NCBI GenBank assembly: GCA_001414345.1
Contig: LLCB01000124.1
Coordinates: 1 to 64,000 of the forward strand
Source of the DNA: Hymenoscyphus infarciens
Taxonomy: Eukaryota; Ascomycota; Leotiomycetes; Helotiales; Helotiaceae
Length of the DNA stretch: 64,000 nucleotides
Reading direction: 5' to 3'
Under the pieces are notes generated by a model. That model had not been told where the DNA came from, ran no database searches, and was given only the letters and a program-made list of their open reading frames with translations. Below are positions 1 through 61,035 of this stretch, in pieces (position 1 is the first letter of the stretch; each line of letters opens with the position of its first letter). Both the position numbers and the translations under genes were made by a program.

Positions 1-3000
1 TTACCTAGTATTATTATTACTAGTAAGATAATCGATAAATAAATCGATTACCTAGTATTATTACCTAGTATTATTACTACTAAGGTAATTAATAAATAAA
101 TCGATTACCTAGTATTATTATTACTAGCTAGGTAATAGATAAATAAATCGATTACTATTATTATTATTACTAGTAAGATAATCGATAAATAAATCGATTA
201 CCTAGTATTATTATCTAGTATTATTACTACTAAGATAATCGATAAATAAATCGATTACCTAGTATTATTTCTAGTAAAGTAATCGATAAATAAATCGATT
301 ACTATTATTATTATTACTAGTAAAGTAATCGATAAATAAATCGATTATCTAGTATTATTATTACTAAGGTAATCGATAAATAAATCGATTACCTAGTATT
401 ATTATTACTAGTAAAGTAATAGATAAATAAATCGATTACTTAGTATTATTTCTAATAAGATAATTAATAAATAAATCAATTACTATTATTATTATTACTA
501 GTAAGATAATCGATAAATAAATCGATTACCTAGTAGTATTTCTAGTAAGATAATCGATAAATAAATCGATTACCTAGTATTATTATTACTAAGGTAATTA
601 ATAAATAAATCGATTACTATTATTATTATTACTAGTAAGGTAATCGATAAATTAATCGATTACCTAGTATTATTATTTCTAGTAAGATAATTAATAAATA
701 AATCGATTACCTAGTATTATTACTAGTAAGATAATCGATAAATAAATCGATTACCTAGTATTATTACTAATAAGATAATTAATAAATAAATCGATTATCT
801 AGTATTATTATTACTAAGGTAATTAATAAATAAATCGATTACCTAGTATTATTTCTAGTAAGGTAATCGATAAATAAATCGATTATCTAGTATTATTATT
901 ACTAAGATAATTAATAAATAAATCGATTACTATTATTATTATTACTAGTAAGATAATTAATAAATAAATCGATTATCTAGTATTATTATTACTAAGATAA
1001 TTAATAAATAAATCAATTATCTAGTATTATTACCTAGTATTATTACTAGTAAGATAATCGATAAATAAATCAATTACCTAATATTATTATTACTAAGGTA
1101 ATTAATAAATAAATCGATTATCTAGTATTATTATTATTACTAAGATAATCGATAAATAAATCGATTACTATTATTATTATTACTAATAAAATAATAGATA
1201 AATAAATCGATTACCTAGTATTATTATTACTAGTAAGATAATAGATAAATAAATCGATTACCTAGTATTATTATTACTAGTAAAGTAATTAATAAATAAA
1301 TCGATTATCTAATATTATTATTACTAAGATAATCGATAAATAAATCGATTACTATTATTATTATTACTAGTAAGGTAATTAATAAATTAATTAATTACTT
1401 AGTATTATTATTTCTAGTAAAGTAAGTAATAAATTAATTAATTACATAGTATTATTATTACTAAGATAATTAATAAATAAATCGATTACTTAGTATTATT
1501 ATTACTAGTAAGATAATTGATAAATAAATCGATTACCTAGTATTATTACTAGTAAGGTAATTGATAAATAAATCGATTATATAGTATTATTATTACTAAG
1601 GTAATCGATAAATAACTCGATTACTATTATTATTATTACTAATAAGGTAATTAATAAATTAATCGATTACTTAGTATTATTATTTCTAGTAAAGTAATTA
1701 ATAAATTAATCGATTATATAGTATTATTATTACTAAGGTAATTAATAAATAAATCGATTACTTAGTATTATTATTACTAGTAAGGTAATTGATAAATAAA
1801 TCGATTACCTAGTATTATTACTAGTAAGGTAATTGATAAATAAATCGATTATATAGTATTATTATTACTAAGGTAATCGATAAATAAATCGATTATCTAG
1901 TATTATTATCTAGTATTATTACTATTAAGATAATCGATAAATAAATCGATTACTTAGTATTATTATTCCTAGTAAAGTAATCGATAAATTAATTAATTAT
2001 ATAGTATTATTATTACTAAGGTAATTAATAAATAAATCGATTACTTAGTATTATTATTACTAGTAAGGTAATTAATAAATAAATCGATTATCTAGTATTA
2101 TTACTAGTAAGGTAATTAATAAATAAATCGATTACGTAGTATTATTATTACTAAGGTAATCGATAAATAAATCGATTACCTAGTATTATTACCTAGTATT
2201 ATTACTATTAAGATAATTAATAAATAAATCGATTACTTAGTATTATTATTCTTAGTAAGGTAATTAATAAATTAATTAATTACTTAGTAGTATTATTTCT
2301 AGTAAAGTAATTAATAAATAAATCAATTATCTAGTAGTATTATTTCTAGTAAGATAATTAATAAATTAATCGATTACCTAGTAGTATTATTTATAGTAAG
2401 GTAATTAATAAATAAATTAATTACCTAGTATTATTATTTCTAGTAAAGTAATTAATAAATAAATTAATTACCTAGTATTATTATTTTTAGTAAGATAATT
2501 AATAAATAAATCGATTACCTAGTATTATTTCTAGTAAAGTAATTAATAAATAAATCGATTACCTAGTATTATTACTAATAAGATAATCGATAAATAAATC
2601 GATTATCTAGTATTATTATTACTAGTAAAGTAATCGATAAATAAATCGATTATCTAATATTATTATTACTAAGATAATTGATAAATAAATCGATTATCTA
2701 GTATTATTATTATTACTAAGATAATCGATAAATAAATCGATTACTATTATTATTATTACTAGTAAAGTAATCGATAAATAAATCGATTACCTAGTATTAT
2801 TACCTAGTATTATTACTATTAAGATAATTGATAAATAAATCGATTACTTAGTATTATTATTCTTAGTAAAGTAATTAATAAATTAATTAATTACTTAGTA
2901 GTATTATTTCTAGTAAAGTAATTAATAAATAAATCAATTACCTAGTAGTATTATTTCTAGTAAGATAATTAATAAATTAATCGATTACCTAGTAGTATTA

Positions 3001-6000
3001 TTTATAGTAAGGTAATTAATAAATAAATTAATTACCTAGTATTATTATTTCTAGTAAAGTAATTAATAAATAAATTAATTACCTAGTATTATTATTTTTA
3101 GTAAGATAATTAATAAATAAATCGATTACCTAGTATTATTTCTAGTAAAGTAATTAATAAATAAATCGATTACCTAGTATTATTACTAATAAGATAATCG
3201 ATAAATAAATCGATTATCTAGTATTATTATTACTAGTAAAGTAATCGATAAATAAATCGATTATCTAATATTATTATTACTAAGATAATTGATAAATAAA
3301 TCGATTATCTAGTATTATTATTATTACTAAGATAATCGATAAATAAATCGATTACTATTATTATTATTACTAGTAAAGTAATCGATAAATAAATCGATTA
3401 TCTAGTATTATTATTACTAAGGTAATCGATAAATAAATCAATTACCTAGTATTATTATTACTAGTAAAGTAATAGATAAATAAATCGATTACCTAGTATT
3501 ATTTCTAATAAGATAATTAATAAATAAATTAATTACTATTATTATTATTACTAGTAAGATAATCGATAAATAAATCAATTACCTAGTATTATTTCTAGTA
3601 AGGTAATCGATAAATAAATCGATTACCTAGTATTATTATTACTAAGGTAATTAATAAATAAATCGATTACTATTATTATTATTACTAGTAAAGTAATTAA
3701 TAAATTAATCGATTATCTAATATTATTATTTCTAGTAAGGTAATTAATAAATAAATCGATTACCTAGTATTATTACTAGTAAGGTAATTAATAAATAAAT
3801 CGATTATCTAGTATTATTACTAATAAGATAATTAATAAATAAATCGATTACCTAGTATTATTATTACTAAGGTAATCGATAAATAAATCGATTACCTAGT
3901 ATTATTTCTAGTAAGATAATCGATAAATAAATCGATTACCTAGTATTATTATTACTAAGATAATTAATAAATAAATCAATTACTATTATTATTATTACTA
4001 GTAAGATAATTAATAAATAAATCAATTACCTAGTATTATTATTACTAAGATAATTAATAAATAAATCAATTACCTAGTATTATTACCTAGTATTATTACT
4101 AGTAAGATAATCGATAAATAAATTGATTACCTAATATTATTATTACTAAGGTAATTAATAAATAAATCGATTCTCTAGTATTATTATTATTACTAAGATA
4201 ATTAATAAATAAATTAATTACTATTATTATTATTACTAATAAGATAATAGATAAATAAATCAATTACCTAGTATTATTATTACTAGTAAGATAATAGATA
4301 AATAAATTGATTACCTAGTATTATTATTACTAGTAAAGTAATCGATAAATAAATCGATTATCTAATATTATTATTACTAAGATAATTAATAAATAAATCG
4401 ATTATCTAGTATTATTATTATTACTAAAGTAATCGATAAATAAATCGATTACTATTATTATTATTACTAGTAAGGTAATTAATAAATTAATCGATTACTT
4501 AGTATTATTATTTCTAGTAAAGTAATTAATAAATTAATCGATTATATAGTATTATTATTACTAAGGTAATTAATAAATAAATCGATTATTTAGTATTATT
4601 ATTACTAGTAAAGTAATCGATAAATTAATCGATTACTTAGTATTATTATTACTAATAAGGTAATTAATAAATAAATCGATTACTTAGTATTATTATTCCT
4701 AGTAAAGTAATTAATAAATTAATTAATTACGTAGTATTATTATTACTAAGATAATTAATAAATAAATCGATTACTTAGTATTATTATTACTAGTAAGGTA
4801 ATTAATAAATAAATCGATTACCTAGTATTATTACTAGTAAGGTAATTAATAAATAAATCGATTATATAGTATTATTATTACTAAGGTAATTAATAAATAA
4901 ATCGATTACCTAGTATTATTACCTAGTATTATTACTATTAAGATAATCGATAAATAAATCAATTACTTAGTATTATTATTCCTAGTAAGATAATTAATAA
5001 ATTAATCGATTACTTAGTAGTATTATTTCTAGTAAAGTAATTAATAAATAAATCGATTACCTAGTAGTATTATTTCTAGTAAGATAATTAATAAATTAAT
5101 CGATTATCTAGTAATATTATTTCTAGTAAGATAATTAATAAATAAATCGATTACCTAGTATTATTATTTCTAGTAAAGTAATTAATAAATAAATCGATTA
5201 CCTAGTATTATTATTTTTAGTAAGATAATTAATAAATAAATCGATTATCTAGTATTATTTCTAGTAAGGTAATCGATAAATAAATCGATTACCTAGTAGT
5301 ATTACTATTAAGATAATCGATAAATAAATCGATTACTTAGTATTATTATTACTAAAGTAATCGATAAATAAATCGATTATCTAGTATTATTTCTAGTAAA
5401 GTAATTGATAAATAAATCGATTATCTAGTATTATTATTACTAAGGTAATCGATAAATAAATCGATTACCTAGTATTATTTCTAGTAAGATAATCGATAAA
5501 TAAATCGATTACTATTATTATTATTACTAGTAAGGTAATTAATAAATAAATCGATTACCTAGTATTATTACTAGTAAAGTAATCGATAAATAAATCAATT
5601 ACCTAGTATTATTATTTCTAGTAAGATAATCGATAAATAAATCGATTACCTAGTATTATTATTACTAAGGTAATTAATAAATAAATCGATTACCTAGTAT
5701 TATTTCTAGTAAGATAATCGATAAATAAATCAATTACCTAGTATTATTATTTTTAGTAAGATAATCGATAAATTAATCGATTACCTAGTATTATTATTAC
5801 TAGTAAAGTAATTAATAAATTAATCGATTACTTAGTATTATTATTTCTAGTAAGGTAATTAATAAATAAATTAATTACCTAGTATTATTTTTACTAGCGT
5901 AATTGATAAATAAATCGATTACCTACTTCTATTTCTCTTAAATTTATTATAAGGTAATTAATAAATAAATCTATTACCTTATACTTTTTTTATATAAGTA

Positions 6001-10590: not shown

Positions 10591-13500
10591 GAAAAAACAA
10601 CTCCGCGCGACTAAATCGACTTTTTAGAAATAACACCACAACCACACACCACAGCGATAAGCAGATACGTGCAATTGTCTTTTAAGGGCCTATTCCCCTA
10701 ATAGCGAATCGTATAGCATTAGGCTAGCCTTTAGTTAGGAAGAAAGATACTAATAGACGTGTTTATAGCTCTTATCTCCTAGTCAAAGCTTAATAGCTTA
10801 AGGTATATAGTAACTATAGTCTCTCGAGGAAGAAGAGAGTATTACTAAACAGTACTATGATCTCTTTCCTTAATTTAATTATCGAATACCTCTTCGTACT
10901 AGAAGTATAAGGTAATTAGAGTTAGCTTTAGTAGGCTATTTAGTAACTCTAAATAGACTTCAAAGCCTATAGTATATACTAAAACGCGTTAATCTAGAAG
11001 CTTCTAGGCAAAGGCAAAAGAGCTTAAAAGCAATAGTAGAGCTAGAGTATATCTACTAATATACTAACCTATACTTCTATTACTAGAAGTACTAGTAATA
11101 GTGTTAGTCTTATTATCTACGTATTCTCTTCTACTATAAGAGCCTTTACTCTCGATAGCCTTACTATAAAAGAGATATATATACTTATTAACTATAATAT
11201 TACTAAGAAGCGCTTATAAGCTCTTCTAAAGCTATCTAAAAAGCTTCTATAGTAGGCAAATAAAGTTATTACTATAGTACTCGGCGTATGCTCTAGCTAT
11301 AATAATAATAGCGTATACTCTACTGCGAAGACACTAGCTATACTAAAGTGGATAGAGGCTGCTAGGCTAATAAATAGCGGAGACGTCTTTCTCTATATTA
11401 GTAACTCTATAATAGTAGAGAAGATAGTATACTATAGAGAAGAATAGGTAGGCTTTCTAGAAGAGAAGGCTATAGTCCTAGTACTAACGTAGGGAGTAGT
11501 TATATCTTTGATATCGATTAAATCAGTAGATATAAGAGACTAGGAGGCTATAGCTAAGAAGCTATATGTCGCTAATCTAACTCTTATCTAGAGCTTAGAA
11601 GAGATCTCAGATATTAGATAGCTTTCTAGATAGAAGCTAGGAAAGAACACTAACGCTATTATAGTAGAATTCTATAATATAGAAATCGTTAATATCTATA
11701 TTAAGGTATATAAAGTAGTATAGGAAAGAGCTTCTAAGTCTATATAATAGTATAGCTAAAAGGCCTAAGTTATCTAATACTTCTACTACTATAGATACGA
11801 CTATATAGTACGTATATATAAAGCTAAACGAAAGTATAGCTTCTATACTATAGACTATAACACTAAGGACTACGTAAGAGACAAAACCATCTATAAGTAT
11901 ACTAACTATAAACTCTTATATATAGTATTCTTAAAAGACTATAAATTCTACGACTAGGCTATAGAGAGAGTTAAGAATAAGAGAAAGCGCTTATAGCTAT
12001 AACTACTGTTCTTAGTAAGACTAGTCTTTATACTATTAGTCTCTTAGTAGAGGAGTAGAGCTACTACGTTAGATAAAGAAGCTCTAGAGAAAGAAAGTAA
12101 TCTATTTGTAGGACTCCTTACTCTCTTCTTCTAGGCCGAATCTACTACCTAGAACGCTTATAAGAATGTTTAGATAGAAGGAGGAGTAGTAGAGGTAGAT
12201 AAGGCATCTCTAGTAGTAGTAGAGAGAATCGTAGAGAGATTAAGAAAGAAGAGAGTAGAAGCGAAGGTTGCTTTATAAAAGCCTATCTTACCTAAACCCT
12301 CTATCTTTACTACCTCTACTAATCCACCTACTACTTAACAACTATTTATAGTACTAACTAACCTAAGCAATATCTTTAGTTAAAATAGCTAGTCCTTTAA
12401 GACTCTAAATATACTAACCTAGTAACAACTTAAGCCTTAATATAGAAAATTCAATAGCTCTTCTATAAAGCCTAAAGAGAACAGAAACGTTAGCGACGAG
12501 TATACTATAGTAACGAAAAGTAGTAAGAGAGCTACGAAGAGAATATACTTCGCCTCTATATCTAAAGTTAAATAGACTAGGCTTACTAGTAATAGAAGAT
12601 ATAATAGCTTAGTATAAGAGTATAACGAAATCGCTAAGAGCTATACTATGAAAAGAGCTACTAACTACACTAGTATAGAATTAACTCTAGAGTTAGAGAA
12701 TAACCTTATTAATGTCTTCTTTAGTATTCTATTAAGTTTAGAGATATTATTAAATACTCTATCTATAGACGTCTTAAGTACTAAGGCTATAAAGCGTCGA
12801 ACCTCTCTCTAAACTAATTAATAAGTATACGCTAGTACTCTACTCTCTCTATCTTATAGTATAACGTTAAAAAATTATATAATATAATAAACCTACTACT
12901 ACGAAATAAGATAGTATAGAAGTATAATATTATAGTAATTTAAGAGCTATAGTTAAATAGCTACGATAAAAAACTCATTTATAACCTCTTTTAAAGAAGA
13001 TTTAAAGCTTTTATAGGTAGACAGAGTAGGCTACTTATATGCTTTCTTATAAATAGAAAAATTAATTCTACTTTAGTAAGAGTTACTAGTAAAGGCGATT
13101 ATTTATACTCTTTTTATATTACGCTAAAAACAGGTAATAGCGACGAAGTTATTACTATTTATAATATCTACAATCTCTAATAGTAAGGTTAGCTAAGTAA
13201 GACATATACAAAAGGGAAATAAAAAGATATTCTAATCTAATCTATTCTACTAGAACTTAACATAGTACTTAAAAAGTATAGAAATAACAAATAGGTAGTA
13301 GTAGAAGACTTTAACTTATATTATAAAGAATAGTTCAAAGACTTACTATTATCTATATATAGCTAAAAGAGGAAAGCTTAAGCTATAGCTTTACTAAGTA
13401 TAGTAGGAGAAAGACATCTAGAGCTAGTATTACTAAAAGGCTTAGTTACTAGACCCTAATCTAATATTTAATCTTACTTAATCAAGACTACTATTGACTT

Positions 13501-16500
13501 AAGTTAGTATAATTCTAGACTTATAAACTCTATCTAGTTATATAGAGTCTAAAAAGACTTAGACATAGCTACTAACCACGTCCTAGTTAAAACAGTTCTT
13601 CTTATTAACTATACATCTACATCAGTTATAGTAAACAAGGACTTTAAGAGGACGGATATAGAGCTTCTTAATATAACACTTCTACTACTTCTTCTAAAGA
13701 CTAAAATCTATACTATAGCTGATCTAGATATAGTAGTTAATCTTATAATTTAAGTAGTCTAAGTAGCTATATAAGCCTCGATACTAGACTACGTTCTCAC
13801 TCTTAAATTAATACCTAGCTTTATATAAGAGTATAGAGAGGCTATTTAAGAAGTTAAGCATATATAAAGAAGGTAGAATAGATTAGATAGTATAGAGTAT
13901 AACTTAAGAGCTTTCTAAAAAGCTAAAAAGATAAGAAAGAAGCTAATTACAATCGCTTAAAAAGACATTTATAAAGACAAGATATTAAACGTAAGAGACG
14001 AGAAAGGGCTATAAGCTTTAATAAGATAGATAAGATTAAGAGGGTTCTAAGCCTCTACTTTTACTCCTAATCTAAAAAGAGGAGATAGTATAATAGTAAA
14101 GGATTTATAAGCGAAAGCTAATATACTATAACGAATCTTCTTCCTATTCTCTCTTAAACCTAACCTCTTAGACATCTACTTTTACTTATATCACTCTCTT
14201 AAAAAGCTCTAGACCTCTATTTAAGAGTATAAAGTAAGAGCAGTAATATAAGAGACGTTATTAGATAAAGCTTTAGAAGAAGATAGAATACTAAATAGAG
14301 TTATCTAGATAATAGCTAGTATTCTTACCTTATATCTTACTAATATCTTTAACAAGTCTATAAAACTTTAGCACTACCTAAAAGGGTTTAAGAAGTCTAT
14401 TATAGTCGCTCTACGTAAGCCTAGAAAGAAGATATATACTAAGCTTAAATTATATTATTCTATTACTCTTATAAATACGATAAGTAAGGTTATAGACTTA
14501 ATACTTACTAAAAGGATCTAGTACTATATAGAGAAACACTTTATACTATTAATAACTTATATAGAAGGCTATAAACAATTATTATACAAGTATAGTATAT
14601 ACCTTCTACTTGAAAAGATATACTTAGCTTAGAGGAAAAGAAAGGTAATAAGCTTACTTATACTTAACATCTTAGAGGCCTTTAACTATATATTATATAA
14701 GAGGCTAATCTATAATATAAAGAAAAGAGGCCTACTTTTAGAAGTTATTTATTAGATATCTAGTTATCTTATAGAGAAGACTATCTAGATTAAGCTATTT
14801 AAAGGCATAAGTAATATATACGACGTAATAACTAGCATCCTCTAAGGCTCTCCTCTCTTCTCTATTCTCTATCTCTTTTATAATATAGATCTTATTAATA
14901 TTAGTAAAGACTATAATCTATCTACAAGGTATATTAACAATATATACTTCTTTATAAAAGGCTATATTATAAAGACTATAATCTAAAAGCTAGAGATTAT
15001 ATATTATAAAGCTAACGACTAGGCTTGAAAGTACGCCTTAGTATTCGCTCTTACTAAGTACGAGCTTATCTACTTTATCTATAAAAGAGATAAAAAGTAT
15101 ATCTACGATAAATTCTAACTTATTAATCTAGGATAGAGTAGAATCGTCGAAGCTACTTCTTATACCTAATACCTAAGAGTTATCTTAGACTCTAAACTAA
15201 ATAGTATAAAGTATATAGAATACGTTAAAGTTAAGATTAAGAAGTTGATTTAGGTACTAAGTAGTATAGTAGAGTTAACTTAAAGTACCTTAATAAGTAA
15301 TATAATTACTCTTATAAAAGCGATTATTATACCCTAGATCTTATTCACTAGCTCAACTTAGTAGATATCTAACCTAATAGTATAAGGTTAAAAGACTTAT
15401 TAGAAGAAAATAATTTAAATACTAAATACCTTCTAAAAGAAGGTACTATATATAGTAACTAGAGCCTTCTAAACTATAGTAGTAGTAGTTATTAAAGCTA
15501 AAACAGATTTCCTTCTAATTAACATTCAGCTAGACTATACTAGTATAATTTCTATAAACTAAATTAAAATATTACCTATATATATATATATTATAATACT
15601 ATAAGAGAGAGGAACTATTAGTAATAACTTAGCTCGCTTCTTCTCTCTTTAAGAACTTAAGCGTAAAGTATAAATAACTATTAGATAACGATAATAAGAA
15701 AGAATTAAAAGAAAGATCTTAATTATCGTCGAGCTATAGTAGTTGTTATTTAATATATAAATCGTTTTAGACGCTAAGACAGTTATTAGAGAATATAATA
15801 AGATCTAAAAACAGTCTTACTTTATATATATATAAGTCTTTATAGATAGAAGCGACATTAACAACTAAGTTAGTATAGCTATATAGAAACTATATAAAGA
15901 GTAGATATATAAAGCAGATATTAAACTAAGTAATTAGTTTATAGTCTATAAAGCTAAGCTTATCAGTATATAGACAGCTCTTAGTATAGCGAATAGAGAA
16001 GGCGATATAGTAAAAAAGCTTACTATCTTTATTAATAACTAAGCTGCTATTATATCATCTATAAGACCTAGAAACTAGTCTAGATAATTTATTCTAAGAA
16101 AGATATATTAGCTATATAGTATCTTAAAAAAGAAGAACATAGAGGTAACGATTTAATAGATCCTAGTATATATAGGTATTCTAGGTAATAAAAAAGCTAA
16201 TAAGCTTACGAAGTAAGCTACTAGTTAACAGTTAAAAGAGAATAAGAAGAAGGGGTTATCTAAAGCGCTAAGATAGTATATAACGTAGCTTCTATAGCTC
16301 TTATCCTCTTATAAAAGACTAATTAATATAGTAGCTAGGTCTTTTTAGTATTGAAAGTAGGACTTTAGTAATACTAGTATACTATATAAGAAAAGATAAA
16401 TAAAAGAGAGGATCTTATTATTTTACTATACTTAATAACTATACTAAAACCTTATAAAAGCTAAATCTTTAGTACTAATCTAGATAAGGACTAAGAAGAT

Positions 16501-17061
16501 TAGCTTAAATAAATACTTATATAAGATTAATAGAATAGATAACCTATAGTATAAATATAACTAATTATACTAAACTATTAAATATATATTTAAAGACTAT
16601 AAAGACTTTAAAGATTTATAACTAGAGTATATAGGAGTAGAGTATACTAGTAATATTAGAGTCTTTCTTTTAAATAGTAAACTTATATTTAAAACTATCT
16701 CTTTTATACTTATAAGTGGTTTTTTAGACTAATTTATAGTATATGCTAAAACATATTCACTTCTATAAATAAGAGATACTATAAAAGGGACGGCTAGAGT
16801 AGTATTACGACGATTATTATCTATACTAACTAAGCCTTTAAAGAGGCTGTTATATTATAATATAACATATACTAGATCAGAAGACGAGGTCGGGATAGAG
16901 GTTACACTTAGAGTTTAGATTATTTAATTTATTTTAAGTCTCTTTTATCTTTCTTTTATTAGCCTTAGATACAGAGCCGATGGCTCGTAACTATATTTAT
17001 AGACTAGACCTAAATAGTGCGTCTGTATATCTGCTAAAGCGGATAAATAGACTATTAATTA

Positions 17062-27635: not shown

Positions 27636-29558
27636 GGATCTCGCTTGATCTTGCTATGATTTGCAAGGGAGTTGGATTCATCTTGGGAGTTTAATATTTT
27701 GGGAACTATATGAGGGCGAAAGCCTTCCGGTGTGTTTTGTTCCACGAAAATAACAATGGGTTGCACCCACAATTCCCTGGGTAGGTAGCGGTAGTTCTGC
27801 TCACTATTTTTTTTGGTGGCAGCTTTACCTTTGGGTGAGAAAAAACCACAACTTTCCGAACACAAACTGGACCTTCTCGAGATCAAGTTCGGGCCTATTC
27901 TTGGTCGTTCCTTCCCTGACATTAAAACCCTTGACTGCGAGACGAGTCAAAGCCGCTCCTTCCCTCTCCCCTCTTAGTCGAAGATAGCGAAAAACCTGAG
28001 CAAGTCTTGCCGTAGGTGTGTGAGGAGGGAAGGAACGACCAAACCCAACGAGCTTCCCTCTTCCCAACACGACACCAACGAGGCAATTCTTGCCGCAAGC
28101 GCGAGCCTATTTCACATGAAAGGAAGGAACGACCAAGCCCAATGACCCAGCTCAAATTTTAAAACCCGGGCGGTCTTCTTCCCTGAGTGGTCTCTCCCTC
28201 ACTTCTTTCCTTCTTTTTTTACATACAACCCTTCCGCCTCCATCATCGACACAATTTACCGACTCTTCTGTAGCTCATAGGTAGGCAAGTTCACTGTGAC
28301 TTTGATTAGTTCTTTTATAGTACTGAACACGCTACCTTGACGGGAGCAGGAAGCGAAATGGCTTCATCTAAATCGAACTTTGGTCTTGAGAGAAAACGTT
28401 CAAAGGCAAGTGGAAAATCCAACCTCCACAAGGTCCGAACTGCTGGGTATTTTCTGAGTTATTTTTTCCTCTTTCGGGTTGTTTCGAGAGGATTGAGACA
28501 CCGTTTCCTCCTCTATTTCCTCAAACATCTAGAAAGGGCAATACTGACTCCGAGATCGCCCTCAGGACGTGTCGTCAAGACAACACTGTGCACGATGAGA
28601 AATTTGAAGAACGTAAGCAATGACAAAGCGTTCTTGACGGTGTTGGTGTTCCGAATCTAGTTATGGTCTCAAAGAAAAGTAAGCCTTCTTTTAGTAAATC
28701 TTGAGATCCAACGCTGATGTATTCAGCGTCTGGTCCTCATTACACAGCTTCCGATCACGGTCTCGATGGACACCACAGAGGAGCTCTTCGTGGAGGTACC
28801 AAACAACAAAAGGAACGATGATAGTGTCGAAAGCCACCTGCCACCTTCTCTCGCTCCGTGGTATCTTGCACACCTGCCTCGCAAATTCTTGAGTTTCCAA
28901 GTAGGTGTGCATTTGAACGTATATAAATGAATATTCTAATATGTAACAGCCACGACCGCTTGAACTCTTGAATGCTTGAACAGAGAGGTTCTTTCACTTC
29001 TGCTGCCTGCTGCGTAGATTTCATTTTAAACTCGCGAGAGCGAGTTGGAATATTATCCCATGGATATATCACACGAAAGGGCTTGGCTAAAATTGTTCAT
29101 CGCGGGCTAGGGCAGGTGAGGGTTTGAATATCACTGTCACAGCGGGGCTAAGTTTCTTTCTCCACCTCCTCCCCCCAAATCATACTTACACTACAAAAAC
29201 CGCAATGTTTTCACTTTTAAGCGAAGGCCAATTGAGTGTGTCCCGTATTGCTAGCCTCCTTTTCATCACCCTGCCGGAAGTGGCAGTGAATATGGAATAC
29301 ATATTCAACCTCACCTTTGAAGCTGATTTTTTTTCGTCTCACCGAGTGCTGTCGAGTGAATTTGATATTCTCTCACATGGTACTAGCTTACCCATTACTA
29401 CGTAGATGGGTAGCAACCTTCTCTCCAAAAAAATATTCTCTCACCAATTCTAAGAACCATTCTCCTTATCATCTCCCAAAGTCTGTCCATCATCTCATAA
29501 TTACCTCTTACATCACACTCCTCCAGTGAAGCGCTGCGTAACCCCATTACTCCCAACA
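27636..29558. other. Intergenic region with short repeats and cryptic exon-like islands
   Basis: No complete gene could be built. A short motif GGAAGGAACGACCAA is present in direct orientation at about 28027 and 28122 and inverted near 27900. Exon-like islands occur: 28358-28432 (MASSKSNFGLERKR...), about 28534-28612 (KGNTDSEIALRTC...) and about 28730-28830 (SGPHYTASDHGLDG...), ending at GTAAG-type donors or stops. Their phases do not join cleanly. Confidence 0.35.
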
Positions 29559-30218
29559 ATGGCTCCCACCAAGAATACAAGCGTGAAGAAAGTGCTTCCC
29601 GCCAAGTCCAAGTCAGCTCGATGCAGCATCAAGAAGGAAAAGGGTAAGCCCAGGCAATCCAGTATGTGGGATCTCCCGATTGAAAAGCAAAAAGAACGCT
29701 AATTGATGTAGCTGTCGCCCGCGGAACCAGATGTTCATTTCGACTTTCCAAGAGAGGGTGTGCTGTCAAAACTGAAGACGAGCGCGAGCACCCGACAGTG
29801 AAGCAAGAAGACACCACGAATGCCGAGCAGAAGTTGAGCACCCAGGAAGTGAGCACCCAGGAAGTGAAGGAAGAGGACACCAAGACAGAACTTACGAAGC
29901 CCGTGTTGAAGGAACCCAAGTACAAGGTTTCCAAGCCAACAACCAAAGTGTCAACCAAACAAACCCGCACCGAAAAACCCAAAGGTTCAGTAAAGTTCAA
30001 GAGTCTGGAAATCGAAGAAGCAATGCAGGACTTCGCTAATCGATCGCTCAAGGGTGATCTCAATTGTAAGTAATTTGCGTTTCCATAAGAACCACTGATT
30101 GATTGGGTGTTAACTTGTCACAGTGGCAGTGGAGGCGGCCCTCATGGTTGCTCGACATGCTGGTCGGAAGACAATTCAACTTGGAGATGTGCATTTAGCG
30201 CGACTTTTTAGGGGATGA
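29559..30218 (+). CDS. Divergent histone H3-like protein with long charged insert
   Basis: Spliced gene of 177 residues; exons 29559-29643, 29712-30065 and 30124-30218, with GTAAG donors and CTAAT/TTAAC branch sites. Residues 1-7 read MAPTKNT, close to the MARTKQT start of histone H3, and the tail that follows is Lys/Ser-rich. The end, HAGRKTIQLGDVHLARLFRG (158-177), aligns with the last part of the H3 fold (HAKRVTI..KDIQLARRIRG), and FKSLEIEEAMQDF (124-136) matches the H3 segment FQRLVREIAQDF. Between tail and fold lies an acidic/basic linker (about 48-120) containing a 15-nt direct duplication (STQEV twice). About 13 residues of the usual helix-2 region seem missing. It is neither canonical H3 nor an obvious CENP-A. 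It could be an H3 variant or a retired copy, though the frame is intact across three exons. Confidence 0.7.
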
Positions 30219-30824
30219 ATTTGTGTTTAGGAGTTGAAAGGTTGGCTGGTGGTTTGGTTTCATTTAGGATTTAAAGAAGAAAAAAAGATGCTTTCATTTG
30301 GGAGGGGAGGAAGGATTGAATGAAAGTTTTGCTGGGCCCGATGTGGGAATTTTGCTTCAAAGCAAGTTTATCCCCTAGCATCGAAAAGAAATTAGCATGG
30401 GAAATGGAAAAATATCTTATCTGCATTGAATATTGTTTCGCGCCGAGAATGACCTAGATCACGAGAGCTTCTAGTCAAACGTGAACTACACATGCGTTCA
30501 TTCAATATTGGATGTCGTTCTCGAGTTTGGAATAAATATGAAACTATAAAGAATTTATGCTGTATACTATGTCGCTAATATATTGTACATGCCTGCTACC
30601 TGTTCCGTTGACCAGTTCTTAATTACAACCAGTGGTGGGTTGTTTCGAGCGTAATATGTCCCATTGGTCCCCATATATATACAAAAATAATATACCTCCA
30701 ACTCCTCCGTTACGCCAGATTAATTTGTCTATCTATATCTTATGTTTCCCTGGCTCTATCCTGGTAATCCATATATCTCTCGACTCCTCATAACAAATAA
30801 AAATATATGGGAAAAGATCGTCGT
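30219..30824. other. Convergent 3' intergenic region
   Basis: Between the stops of the H3-like gene and the acyltransferase gene. AT-rich, probably 3' UTRs. Nothing else seen. Confidence 0.5.
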
Positions 30825-32264
30825 CTACTTTGGCAACTCCGGTCCGCCAAGACGCATAAGCGGCTTCTCTTCATCCCTGTTCTTCTGTTCATCCACAGTG
30901 ACATAGTGTACCAGGCTCTCCGTCATTCTTGCACACCAAGGATCCACATGTTTCGTCCAGAGATTGGCAACCGAGTATAAAATGACAAACCAAATTGGCA
31001 GAAAGAACCAGAACCGGACTCTTCCGGGGATCGGTAGATTTGTTGCTCGTTCGACGGCTCCGTCCTCGTGGATGATGTCTGCGGGAACTTTGAATCCAAA
31101 ATACATCCATACTAGGACTGTACGTAGCATGTTTCCATGAAGCAAGTAAACTGCAAAGGAGTTTTTTCCAAACCAGAGAAGGTATTTGTTGGAAAGGAGG
31201 GCTTTAAAGCCAGGGGAGAAATGAATTCCGAGGGCAATAAATTCGAGTCCGAGTCCCGAGTAAAAGCGTGGCGTTTCGCAGTCTTTTGGGAAAATATACA
31301 GGCTCGCCTGAAGCATGGAGTTGGACCATGGCATCCATTCAGGGTTATATTCGGGATACGAGGCAAGCAATAGTCCGATAAGAACAAGGACCGGCGAAAG
31401 GACCCGGGAGGTCCATTTTCGAGCTGCACACCATGCCGTGTGGCCTGGTGCTTGTGCGAGTTCTGAGAGGAAGGCACCGAAGAAGACTTGCATACCGAAT
31501 GCAGCTGAAAAGTATTAGCGAGTTTTCCTCTCTCCAAGGGGCGAAAGGTCTTACAATCATTGCTTAGATAGAAAAAAACGAATAAAGCGAGCTCCACCAT
31601 CATTCGATATCTCGCTTTGATATATGCAGTTGCAAACAACATCATATAAACCATCATGCTACCATTTAACAACGAGACTAGAGTCCATTGATTGGTGTCG
31701 TAACCGTCCCATTGTTTCGTCCATGTCGTAACGAGGTTCACAATCAAATCTTTGAGTGCTTGTCCGATCCAAGGTGTCATATTTGGAGACGTGTAATTGA
31801 GCCACCAGCCTCCTGCTCTATTCCCAACTTCGTAAACACCGAATTGACAGATGAACCAGGAAATTGTCGTCGCAATCGTGGCTGGCAACACAAGCCTCGG
31901 CACACGTCGAAAGGCGCTCCTCGAGATACCAAGAAATGCAGCTTCTTGTTGCCCAGCTCGGAATTGTCGGATTGGTTTGAGAGCACACACATATCCCGTC
32001 ACAAGAGAGAAGACGGTGACTCCTATTCGACCTTGAAATAGAACTCGGATGATTGGGTATTGTGCTATCCGGGGTTTCATGCCCTCCTCTGAGGTCGGCT
32101 TGAATAAATCTTCGTCGAAGGCTCGGGCTAGGTGAGTGAAAACGACGAGTAGGGATGCAAAGCCACGGAGGCCCTAAAATATTGTAAGTTGACTGTATGG
32201 GAGTGCTTGACTTCGTTCAAATACATACGTCCACCCACTTGACATTTTCGTGCCTGACGCTCAT
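30825..32264 (-). CDS. Acyltransferase-3 family integral membrane protein
   Basis: Spliced gene of 444 residues; exons 32229-32264, 31555-32173 and 30825-31504 on the minus strand. The introns (GTATGT...TTTAG and GTAAGA...TTCAG) keep phase. The first residues read MSVRHENVKWVDGLRGF, followed by ASLLVVFTHLARAF, the classic opening of the Acyl_transf_3/OafA family with the conserved Asp12 and His26 in the first membrane helix. About ten membrane segments follow, with a late one starting KYLLWFGKNSFAVYLLHG. The C-terminus is a short hydrophilic tail. Fungal members transfer acyl groups to carbohydrate or secondary-metabolite acceptors in the endomembrane system, but the substrate cannot be told here. 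The 12-residue first exon explains why the start is easily missed. Confidence 0.85.
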
Positions 32265-59701: not shown

Positions 59702-61035
59702 AGAGTTGGGGCCACAGCTAGTGGGCCCTCCTAAGCGAGATGACCCCCTACCTTAATTTCTAATACTCCCTTTTTAAAAACCTACTATAATTTAACCTTT
59801 TAACTAAAACTCTTTAAATTAAAGACGATAGACCGAATACTCTCTCCCTCTTATATATATAAGCCTAGCTAGAATTAGCCTATACCAAAGTATACTAGAG
59901 TATACTAAGCCTAAGTAGATAGAAAATCTTAGAGTACTATCTTTAAAGAATTAGAGGTACTTAAATCCACTATATAAAGGATCTATAAGGCTGATTTAAG
60001 TTAAATAACTTATAAAGAGAAGTAATATTAAAAGAGATTACTATCTAAACGATATATCTACTAAATTCTTTGGTTTATATCTTAAAATTATACTACTTAT
60101 TAGATATCTTTTTTATAAGTTAAAAACACTTTTAACTTACCTACTTCTTCTTATATTATTTACTAAGAACTTCGCTATACTAGCTACTAATAATATATTA
60201 TATATCTTTAACCCTTTATTAGCTGAATATAAGTAAAGAAACATCTTACTTTTATATTATTATACTACTAGTAGGGGATATTAGATTAGGTAGCTACTTA
60301 TAGGTAAAAGGGGGACTAGAGGAAGGTTATATAGTTAGATAAGTATATATTTAAGCTTAGAAAGAGTAATAGGGTTTAGGTAATATAGTATATAGATGAA
60401 AAGAGGTATCTAGACTATATTTAGTTAATATATTACTTAGAGAGGGTATTAGTTATAATTTAGGGTATAATTAGCTAGGATTATAAGTCTCTTCTTATCT
60501 TTCTAGAAAAGGAATAAGGCTGTAAAAGAGTGAATTCTTAAGTATATAGGGATTAAGTTCTTAAACTAGTTATCTTTCTACTATTTAATAAGCTTAGTAC
60601 TACTTATATCTTTATAGAGAATAGTTTAAAGGTATATAAAGGATATACTTATTTAGCTAAGCTCGAATATAATATTTATAGCTTTAATTAGCCTCCTTCT
60701 TTATCTAATTTAAACGTAATAGAGAAGGTCTAGTAGTAGATAAAAGAAGAGTTAAAGAAGTTACCTTTTATACCGACTTCTAAGGAGGGATTAATTAGAG
60801 AGATTTAAAGGCTCTAGGATTTAGTAGATCTATGTAATTATAGGCGATATACTAAGTAATTAACTTATAAGTTAGAAGATGTTATTAAAGTAAAAGGATT
60901 AGCTACTATTTATTAATAATATATATAAGTTTTAAAGTAAAAGACTTAAAGTTAGATTTATAATAGATTTTTAAGTAATAAGTGTCAATTTAGTAGGGTT
61001 CGCTTAGGGGGCCCACTAGCTGTGGCCCCAACTCT
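59702..61035. mobile_element. Tc1/mariner-like DNA transposon remnant, interior RIP-degraded
   Basis: A 1334-bp element flanked by TA (59700-59701 and 61036-61037). The terminal inverted repeats of about 38 bp begin AGAGTTGGGGCCACAGCTAG and continue TGGGCCC..CCTAAGCGA, differing between ends by about one base. The interior is extremely AT-rich, with stops in all frames and almost no CA/TG, so no transposase can be read. Size, TA duplication and inverted ends fit Tc1/mariner or pogo/Fot elements. The class is inferred, since no DDE motif is visible. Confidence 0.7.

Follow-up and report, generated by a model that had tools for sequence, protein, structure and literature searches.

A gene of Hymenoscyphus infarciens probably encoding a basic protein with a partial histone fold

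At positions 29559-30218 of the analyzed window, a stretch of 64,000 nucleotides, there is probably a genuine gene with an open frame, whose basic product would have part of a histone fold. The explanation which we prefer, and to which we give about even chances, is a basic, apparently single-copy, fast-evolving and lineage-restricted histone-fold protein. In such a protein a Lys-rich, mostly disordered arm of approximately 120 residues would be joined to a C-terminal degenerate histone fold, which would keep L1-like, alpha2, L2 and alpha3 elements and lack a recognizable alpha1. The gene would be spliced as modelled and expressed, its product would be nuclear, and its occurrence would be confined to one lineage. 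The alpha2/alpha3 surface would pair with another histone-fold protein, and the Lys-rich arm together with the L2 loop would touch DNA or nucleosomes. In a fold lacking alpha1 dimerization may fail. Its ancestor may have been H3/CENP-A or another histone-fold gene. An orphan which evolves fast and has only part of a histone fold would add one more case of innovation among chromatin proteins and would provide a test of the degree of loss the fold can sustain. A more specific version holds that a eukaryotic, lineage-specific histone-fold protein of H3/CENP-A-type or archaeal-like origin lost alpha1, grew a long charged arm and now serves either as one side of a partial handshake or as a monomeric fold. 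We regard this version as rather improbable; if it were true, the chromatin of the fungus would contain a component for which no counterpart is known in fungi.

The gene lies on the forward strand and consists of three exons with 177 codons. Exon 1 (29559-29643) encodes residues 1-28, starting with MAPTKNTSVKK, and contributes the first base of codon 29. Intron 1 (29644-29711), as read from the sequence, extends from GTAAGC to TAG and contains the branch-point-like sequence CTAAT. Exon 2 (29712-30065) runs from the rest of codon 29 to the first base of codon 147 and encodes a Lys/Glu-rich low-complexity linker, followed by one predicted helix. Its end (29987-30065; SVKFKSLEIEEAMQDFANRSLKGDLN) would form the N-terminal part of the putative degenerate histone fold and corresponds to alpha1-L1 or to L1-alpha2N, depending on the alignment chosen. 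Intron 2 (30066-30123; GTAAGT...CAG) is in phase 1 and splits the putative alpha2. Exon 3 (30124-30218) encodes the putative C-terminal part of alpha2, L2 and alpha3 (LAVEAALMVARHAGRKTIQLGDVHLARLFRG) and the stop codon. Both introns contain a sequence resembling CTRAY, the branch-point consensus by which they were judged. Splicing as modelled resulted in a clean frame of 177 amino acids with no internal stop and a protein of 19.8 kDa with a pI of 9.9. The in-frame codon score of the gene was 0.089 bits/codon, which lies inside the range of -0.01 to 0.18 spanned by the training set itself, 10 long ORFs of the window. Random windows (n = 3000; mean -0.33, sd 0.12), drawn from five chosen intervals which may include genes, reached this value in 0.17% of cases. 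A synonymous-codon measure did not discriminate, as 13% of random windows reached the value of the gene. The intact three-exon gene proposed in the preliminary description is borne out at the sequence level by the open frame, the consensus splice sites and the codon score. The 15-nt internal duplication reported there is real as well: two tandem copies at 29837-29866 encode STQEV STQEV and were also called by TRF (29830-29867, period 15, 2.5 copies).

The alpha2-L2-alpha3 signature of the histone fold is found in the last 30 residues or so. In a search of NCBIfam with the whole protein the archaeal histone family NF043032 matched residues 150-172 with an E-value of 9.9e-5 and 22.7 bits at a curated cut-off of 50; two further families had E-values of 4 to 10. 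With the full-length protein no Pfam family exceeded its cut-off. CENP-S (E 0.028), DUF6976 (E 0.036), Histone (E 8.8) and Presenilin (E 9.7) were listed, the DUF6976 and Presenilin matches falling on the linker. The C-terminal 57 or 62 amino acids matched CENP-S, Histone, CBFD_NFYB_HMF, CENP-T_C and TFIID-31kDa with E-values of 0.0057 to 0.22, all below cut-off. Histone-fold families made up all five top families listed for the 57-residue piece and five of six for each of two other C-terminal pieces, the sixth being DUF7463 or TFIIF-alpha (E 0.13-0.18; DUF7463 E 0.13 for the 62-residue piece). Pfam Histone (PF00125, cut-off 26.4 bits) reached 7 bits with the full length, 16.2 with 57 residues, 16 with 62 residues and 20 with the alternative splice junction described below, while the H3 fold of the same genome, used as positive control, gave 107 bits.

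In a sequence search of the PDB with the full protein the best matches were archaeal HMfA/HMfB (E 0.046-0.067), and the eight chains at E<=10 comprised six archaeal histones and two of AN1-type zinc finger protein 5, the latter matched by the linker. The archaeal-histone profile was also run over the whole genome (65.6 Mb, 742 contigs). Eleven places were obtained at E<=10, none above the cut-off, and the gene described here ranked fifth (E 0.016). Of the ten further places, nine fall within genes which, by our own reading of the loci, encode H3, a HAP5-like protein, H4 (two genes), CENP-S, CENP-A, an NC2-like protein, CENP-T and a TAF13-like protein; at the remaining one (contig C259, E 1.26) no gene was recognized. 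The profile match over alpha2-L2-alpha3 is significant, though below the curated cut-off of the family, and partly supports a place of the protein in the histone-fold superfamily. Neither Pfam nor NCBIfam assigned the C-terminus to a non-histone fold. Of the two options in the preliminary description, a new H3 variant or a specialized histone-fold protein, the latter is supported by the histone-fold families heading the C-terminal matches, all below curated cut-offs, and is favoured. Against our preferred explanation speak the absence of any match above a curated cut-off and the weak linker matches to DUF6976, Presenilin and AN1-type zinc finger protein 5.

The H3-like end noted earlier was confirmed, since the C-terminal stretch resembles H3 and HMfB beyond chance. 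It carries HA.R.TIQ..D..LAR..RG with the spacing of H3, and the score against the genome's own H3 was 66, compared with a maximum of 55 in 20,000 shuffles of the full protein. The score against HMfB was 68 (maximum 58 in 20,000 shuffles), and that against CENP-A was 51, a value reached by shuffles (maximum 55; fitted p 1.3e-4). The significant histone-like part comprises about 25-30 residues only. Among the histone folds of the same genome H3 gave the best alignment Z over residues 116-177 (10.2), before CENP-A (7.2), CENP-T and CENP-S (6.1 each), H4 (5.3) and the TAF13-like protein (4.0). This ranking, the spacing of the end and the MAxTKxT start speak for a true, very divergent H3 variant, a duplicate of H3 or CENP-A whose tail was replaced by a linker and whose alpha1 was lost or altered. 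We nevertheless consider such a variant unlikely. HMfB scores as high as H3, has the higher Z over residues 146-177 (11.2 versus 10.2) and tops the PDB lists. Moreover, the introns do not lie, by eye, where the ORFs of the canonical H3 gene break. The H3-like start survived only in part. Five of the first seven residues agree (MAxTKxT), and the ungapped similarity over 12 residues has a p of 0.003, but it fades over 20 (p 0.043), 30 (p 0.044) and 38 residues (p 0.18), where the resemblance to the tail is lost. A gapped alignment of residues 1-45 with the H3 tail was not significant, as 30% of shuffles reached its score. The L2-alpha3 ending TI..D..LAR..RG is present, while neither an H3 globular domain above the family cut-off nor an H3 N-terminal tail beyond the first residues was found. 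The proposal of a new H3 variant was not upheld, with Pfam Histone below its cut-off, no recognizable alpha1, the tail gone past the first residues and an archaeal histone about equally similar. Since the claims on the start and on helix 2 turned out weak or ambiguous, the initial observation was graded as partly confirmed, and divergent H3 is, as far as the sequence goes, an only partly supported description of the protein.

In alignments to histone folds no alpha1 was recognizable. Residues 116-150 alone gave no convincing match among the 12 histone folds compared, the best being H4 with a p of 0.03, uncorrected for 12 comparisons. Whether helix 2 is shortened, as previously described, depends on the alignment. 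The local alignment to the H3 template skips 13 residues, of which 5 form a gap near L1 and 8 a second gap in alpha2. In contrast, when L1 is placed at SVKFKS and alpha2 begins with LEIEEAM..., a full-length alpha2 with approximately 4 extra residues and no alpha1 is obtained. The extra residues arise from GDLNL replacing one residue directly beside intron 2. They are dropped if the alternative donor GTGATC, 12 nt upstream, is used with an unchanged acceptor. Without them, the alignment of L1-alpha2-L2-alpha3 is free of gaps for CENP-A and has a single gap of one residue for H3, and this alignment counts in favour of the H3 variant. Pfam Histone improved from E 0.015 (62-residue piece) to E 0.00085 (58-residue piece). 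The archaeal histone family gave E 1.2e-5 with the 58-residue piece and 9.9e-5 with the whole protein, the lengths being different. In the PDB, HMfA reached E 0.003, and CENP-A/H3 chains, again in favour of the H3 variant, were among the matches. Because GTGATC is one of 9 splice combinations with an open frame and is by consensus a poorer donor than GTAAGT, this junction is retained only as a hint that about 4 codons may have been added beside intron 2. Such codons would have a possible parallel in the H4E genes of Eurotiomycetes, where additional codons are described in the histone core, in most cases immediately before an intron (PMC10878826). Single-sequence folding of an unspliced piece with a few intron-coded residues predicted one helix, at residues 127-140, in a model of mostly low confidence (mean pLDDT 62). 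Exon 3, folded without an alignment in a piece that likewise holds a few intron-coded residues, was predicted as one continuous helix which did not show the L2 break. This is weak evidence against a helix-loop-helix there.

The other histone-fold genes of the genome were located by profile search. H3 lies at C166:82707 on the forward strand and, with additional reading of the locus, H4 at C166:81013 on the reverse strand and a second H4 gene at C742:129353. A CENP-A-like gene was found at C727:49141-49491, and genes above cut-off were obtained for CENP-T (C525:6640-7016), CENP-S (C24:372752-373034), a TAF9-type protein (C714) and CENP-X (C721). The H4 and H3 genes form a divergent pair (C166:81013-82976). 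Read by eye, the two exons of the CENP-A-like gene are divided inside alpha1; exon 2 begins with REIAAFTRPAGEAMRWQSQ, which is longer than in H3. Identity of the gene at 29559-30218 with the H3, CENP-A, CENP-S/T/X or TAF9-type gene was ruled out, as each has its own locus elsewhere. Its own matches to CENP-S, CENP-T_C and TFIID-31kDa stayed below cut-off, and CENP-X was not among the matches listed.

Among the eight families searched in the genome, CENP-W (PF15510) alone remained without a match. The protein might be the subunit missing here, or a diverged form of it, as a CENP-W-like protein with a histone fold, or it might be a CENP-S-like one; it shares the RG end with human and chicken CENP-W. 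We consider this very unlikely. PF15510 was not among the Pfam matches of the protein or its C-terminal pieces. CENP-W is not known to carry an N-terminal arm of 120 residues, and its alpha3 is longer; both points count against the assignment. The missing match itself means little, because vertebrate-based profiles look insensitive: yeast Wip1 was not among the PDB matches of a profile built from human and chicken CENP-W, although the structure of Wip1 is deposited as 6YPC (PMC7641736). CENP-S was the best Pfam match of the 57- and 62-residue pieces (E 0.0057 and 0.0068), below cut-off. Intron 2 and an intron of the CENP-S gene, the latter placed by eye, are both in phase 1 and lie 11 and 12 residues before the H of the HAG motif, within one codon of each other. 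An intron of the H4 gene on C742 is in phase 2 and precedes the H by 15 residues. This coincidence, however, was picked from several compared positions, and a clear CENP-S gene exists elsewhere in the genome. If the protein were the CENP-W of this fungus, it would show the extent of drift in kinetochore histone folds.

The apparent single-copy state of our preferred histone-fold protein was derived from searches that scored the best candidates only. No paralog was found in the genome, and 28900-30750 (1851 bases) matched only itself. Homologs at E<=10 were found neither with the full protein (77 candidates) nor with residues 116-177 (3 candidates), in searches which score only proteins sharing 5-residue words with the query and having 0.55-1.75 times its length. 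An exon of the neighbouring, convergent acyltransferase-3-like gene (30825-32173, reverse strand) had 119 relatives at E<=1e-5, the best being 93% identical. The three matches carrying organism names (Biscogniauxia, Xylariaceae, Sporothrix) showed 43-47% identity and suggest a fungal genome, probably that of a Pezizomycotina ascomycete. Many records among these relatives seem to be gene calls from metagenomes, so that the database could simply lack the short exons of a spliced gene; the absence of homologs would be equally expected if the gene evolves fast. When viral contigs were scanned with exon 2, none of 37 pattern stretches was confirmed. Rfam gave no match in 28000-32000, and going by titles and the starts of abstracts no paper was recognized as describing the protein.

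The lack of homologs in both searches, the apparently incomplete fold and the low-complexity linker with its duplication would also suit a decaying or young de novo gene, whose histone-like end is a relic or a chance product without histone-fold function. Such an origin appears improbable to us: the frame is open, the coding score is gene-like, the similarity to two histones (H3, HMfB) exceeds that of all shuffles, and a RIP signature is absent from the gene (composite index -0.8, whereas three AT-rich blocks of the window have 1.2 to 1.6). These blocks (1-6000, 11500-17000 and 60001-61000; GC 17-27%), which have a strong RIP signature, sit between gene-bearing DNA of normal composition. No support was found for a transposon or transduplication origin: a search scoring the best candidates gave a single copy of 28900-30750, and no terminal inverted repeats were seen to flank the gene. 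In 28000-31500 one inverted repeat alone was reported, a local one with arms 9 nt apart. This imperfect repeat (28867-28911; 18 nt, spacer 9 nt) lies about 650 bp upstream of the gene.

Compared with known systems, the protein shares the HAGRKTI..D..LA signature of alpha2-L2-alpha3 with archaeal HMfA/HMfB (NF043032). Archaeal histones have a fold with alpha1 and no long arm. Unlike the protein described here, they comprise only about 68 amino acids, and its score stays below their family cut-off. With H3/CENP-A (PF00125) it has the HA.R.TI...D..LAR..RG end and the MAxTKxT start in common, but it is without a recognizable alpha1 or conserved tail and below the Pfam cut-off, and the genome has its own H3 and CENP-A. 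CENP-S/MHF1 and CENP-T share the HAG(R)xT....DV motif, and CENP-S in addition the phase and approximate place of the intron, whereas the protein stops at alpha3 and both families have their own genes in this genome. H3L of Pyrenophora tritici-repentis is a fungal H3-like protein distinct from both H3 and CenH3; its tail contains insertions, the helices of its fold vary, and it is carried by a multicopy hAT-type element (PMC3538342). By description only, both are H3-like fungal proteins, while here no second copy was found. Further lineage-restricted ascomycete histone variants are H4E of Pezizomycotina, which has an intron pattern of its own and longer tails (PMC10878826), and H3V-CTG of Candida albicans, termed a variant histone H3 by its authors (PMC6703697). 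Compared by description, the protein resembles both in its putative lineage restriction and differs from H4E, whose histone fold is quite conserved (PMC10878826), in having only a partial one.
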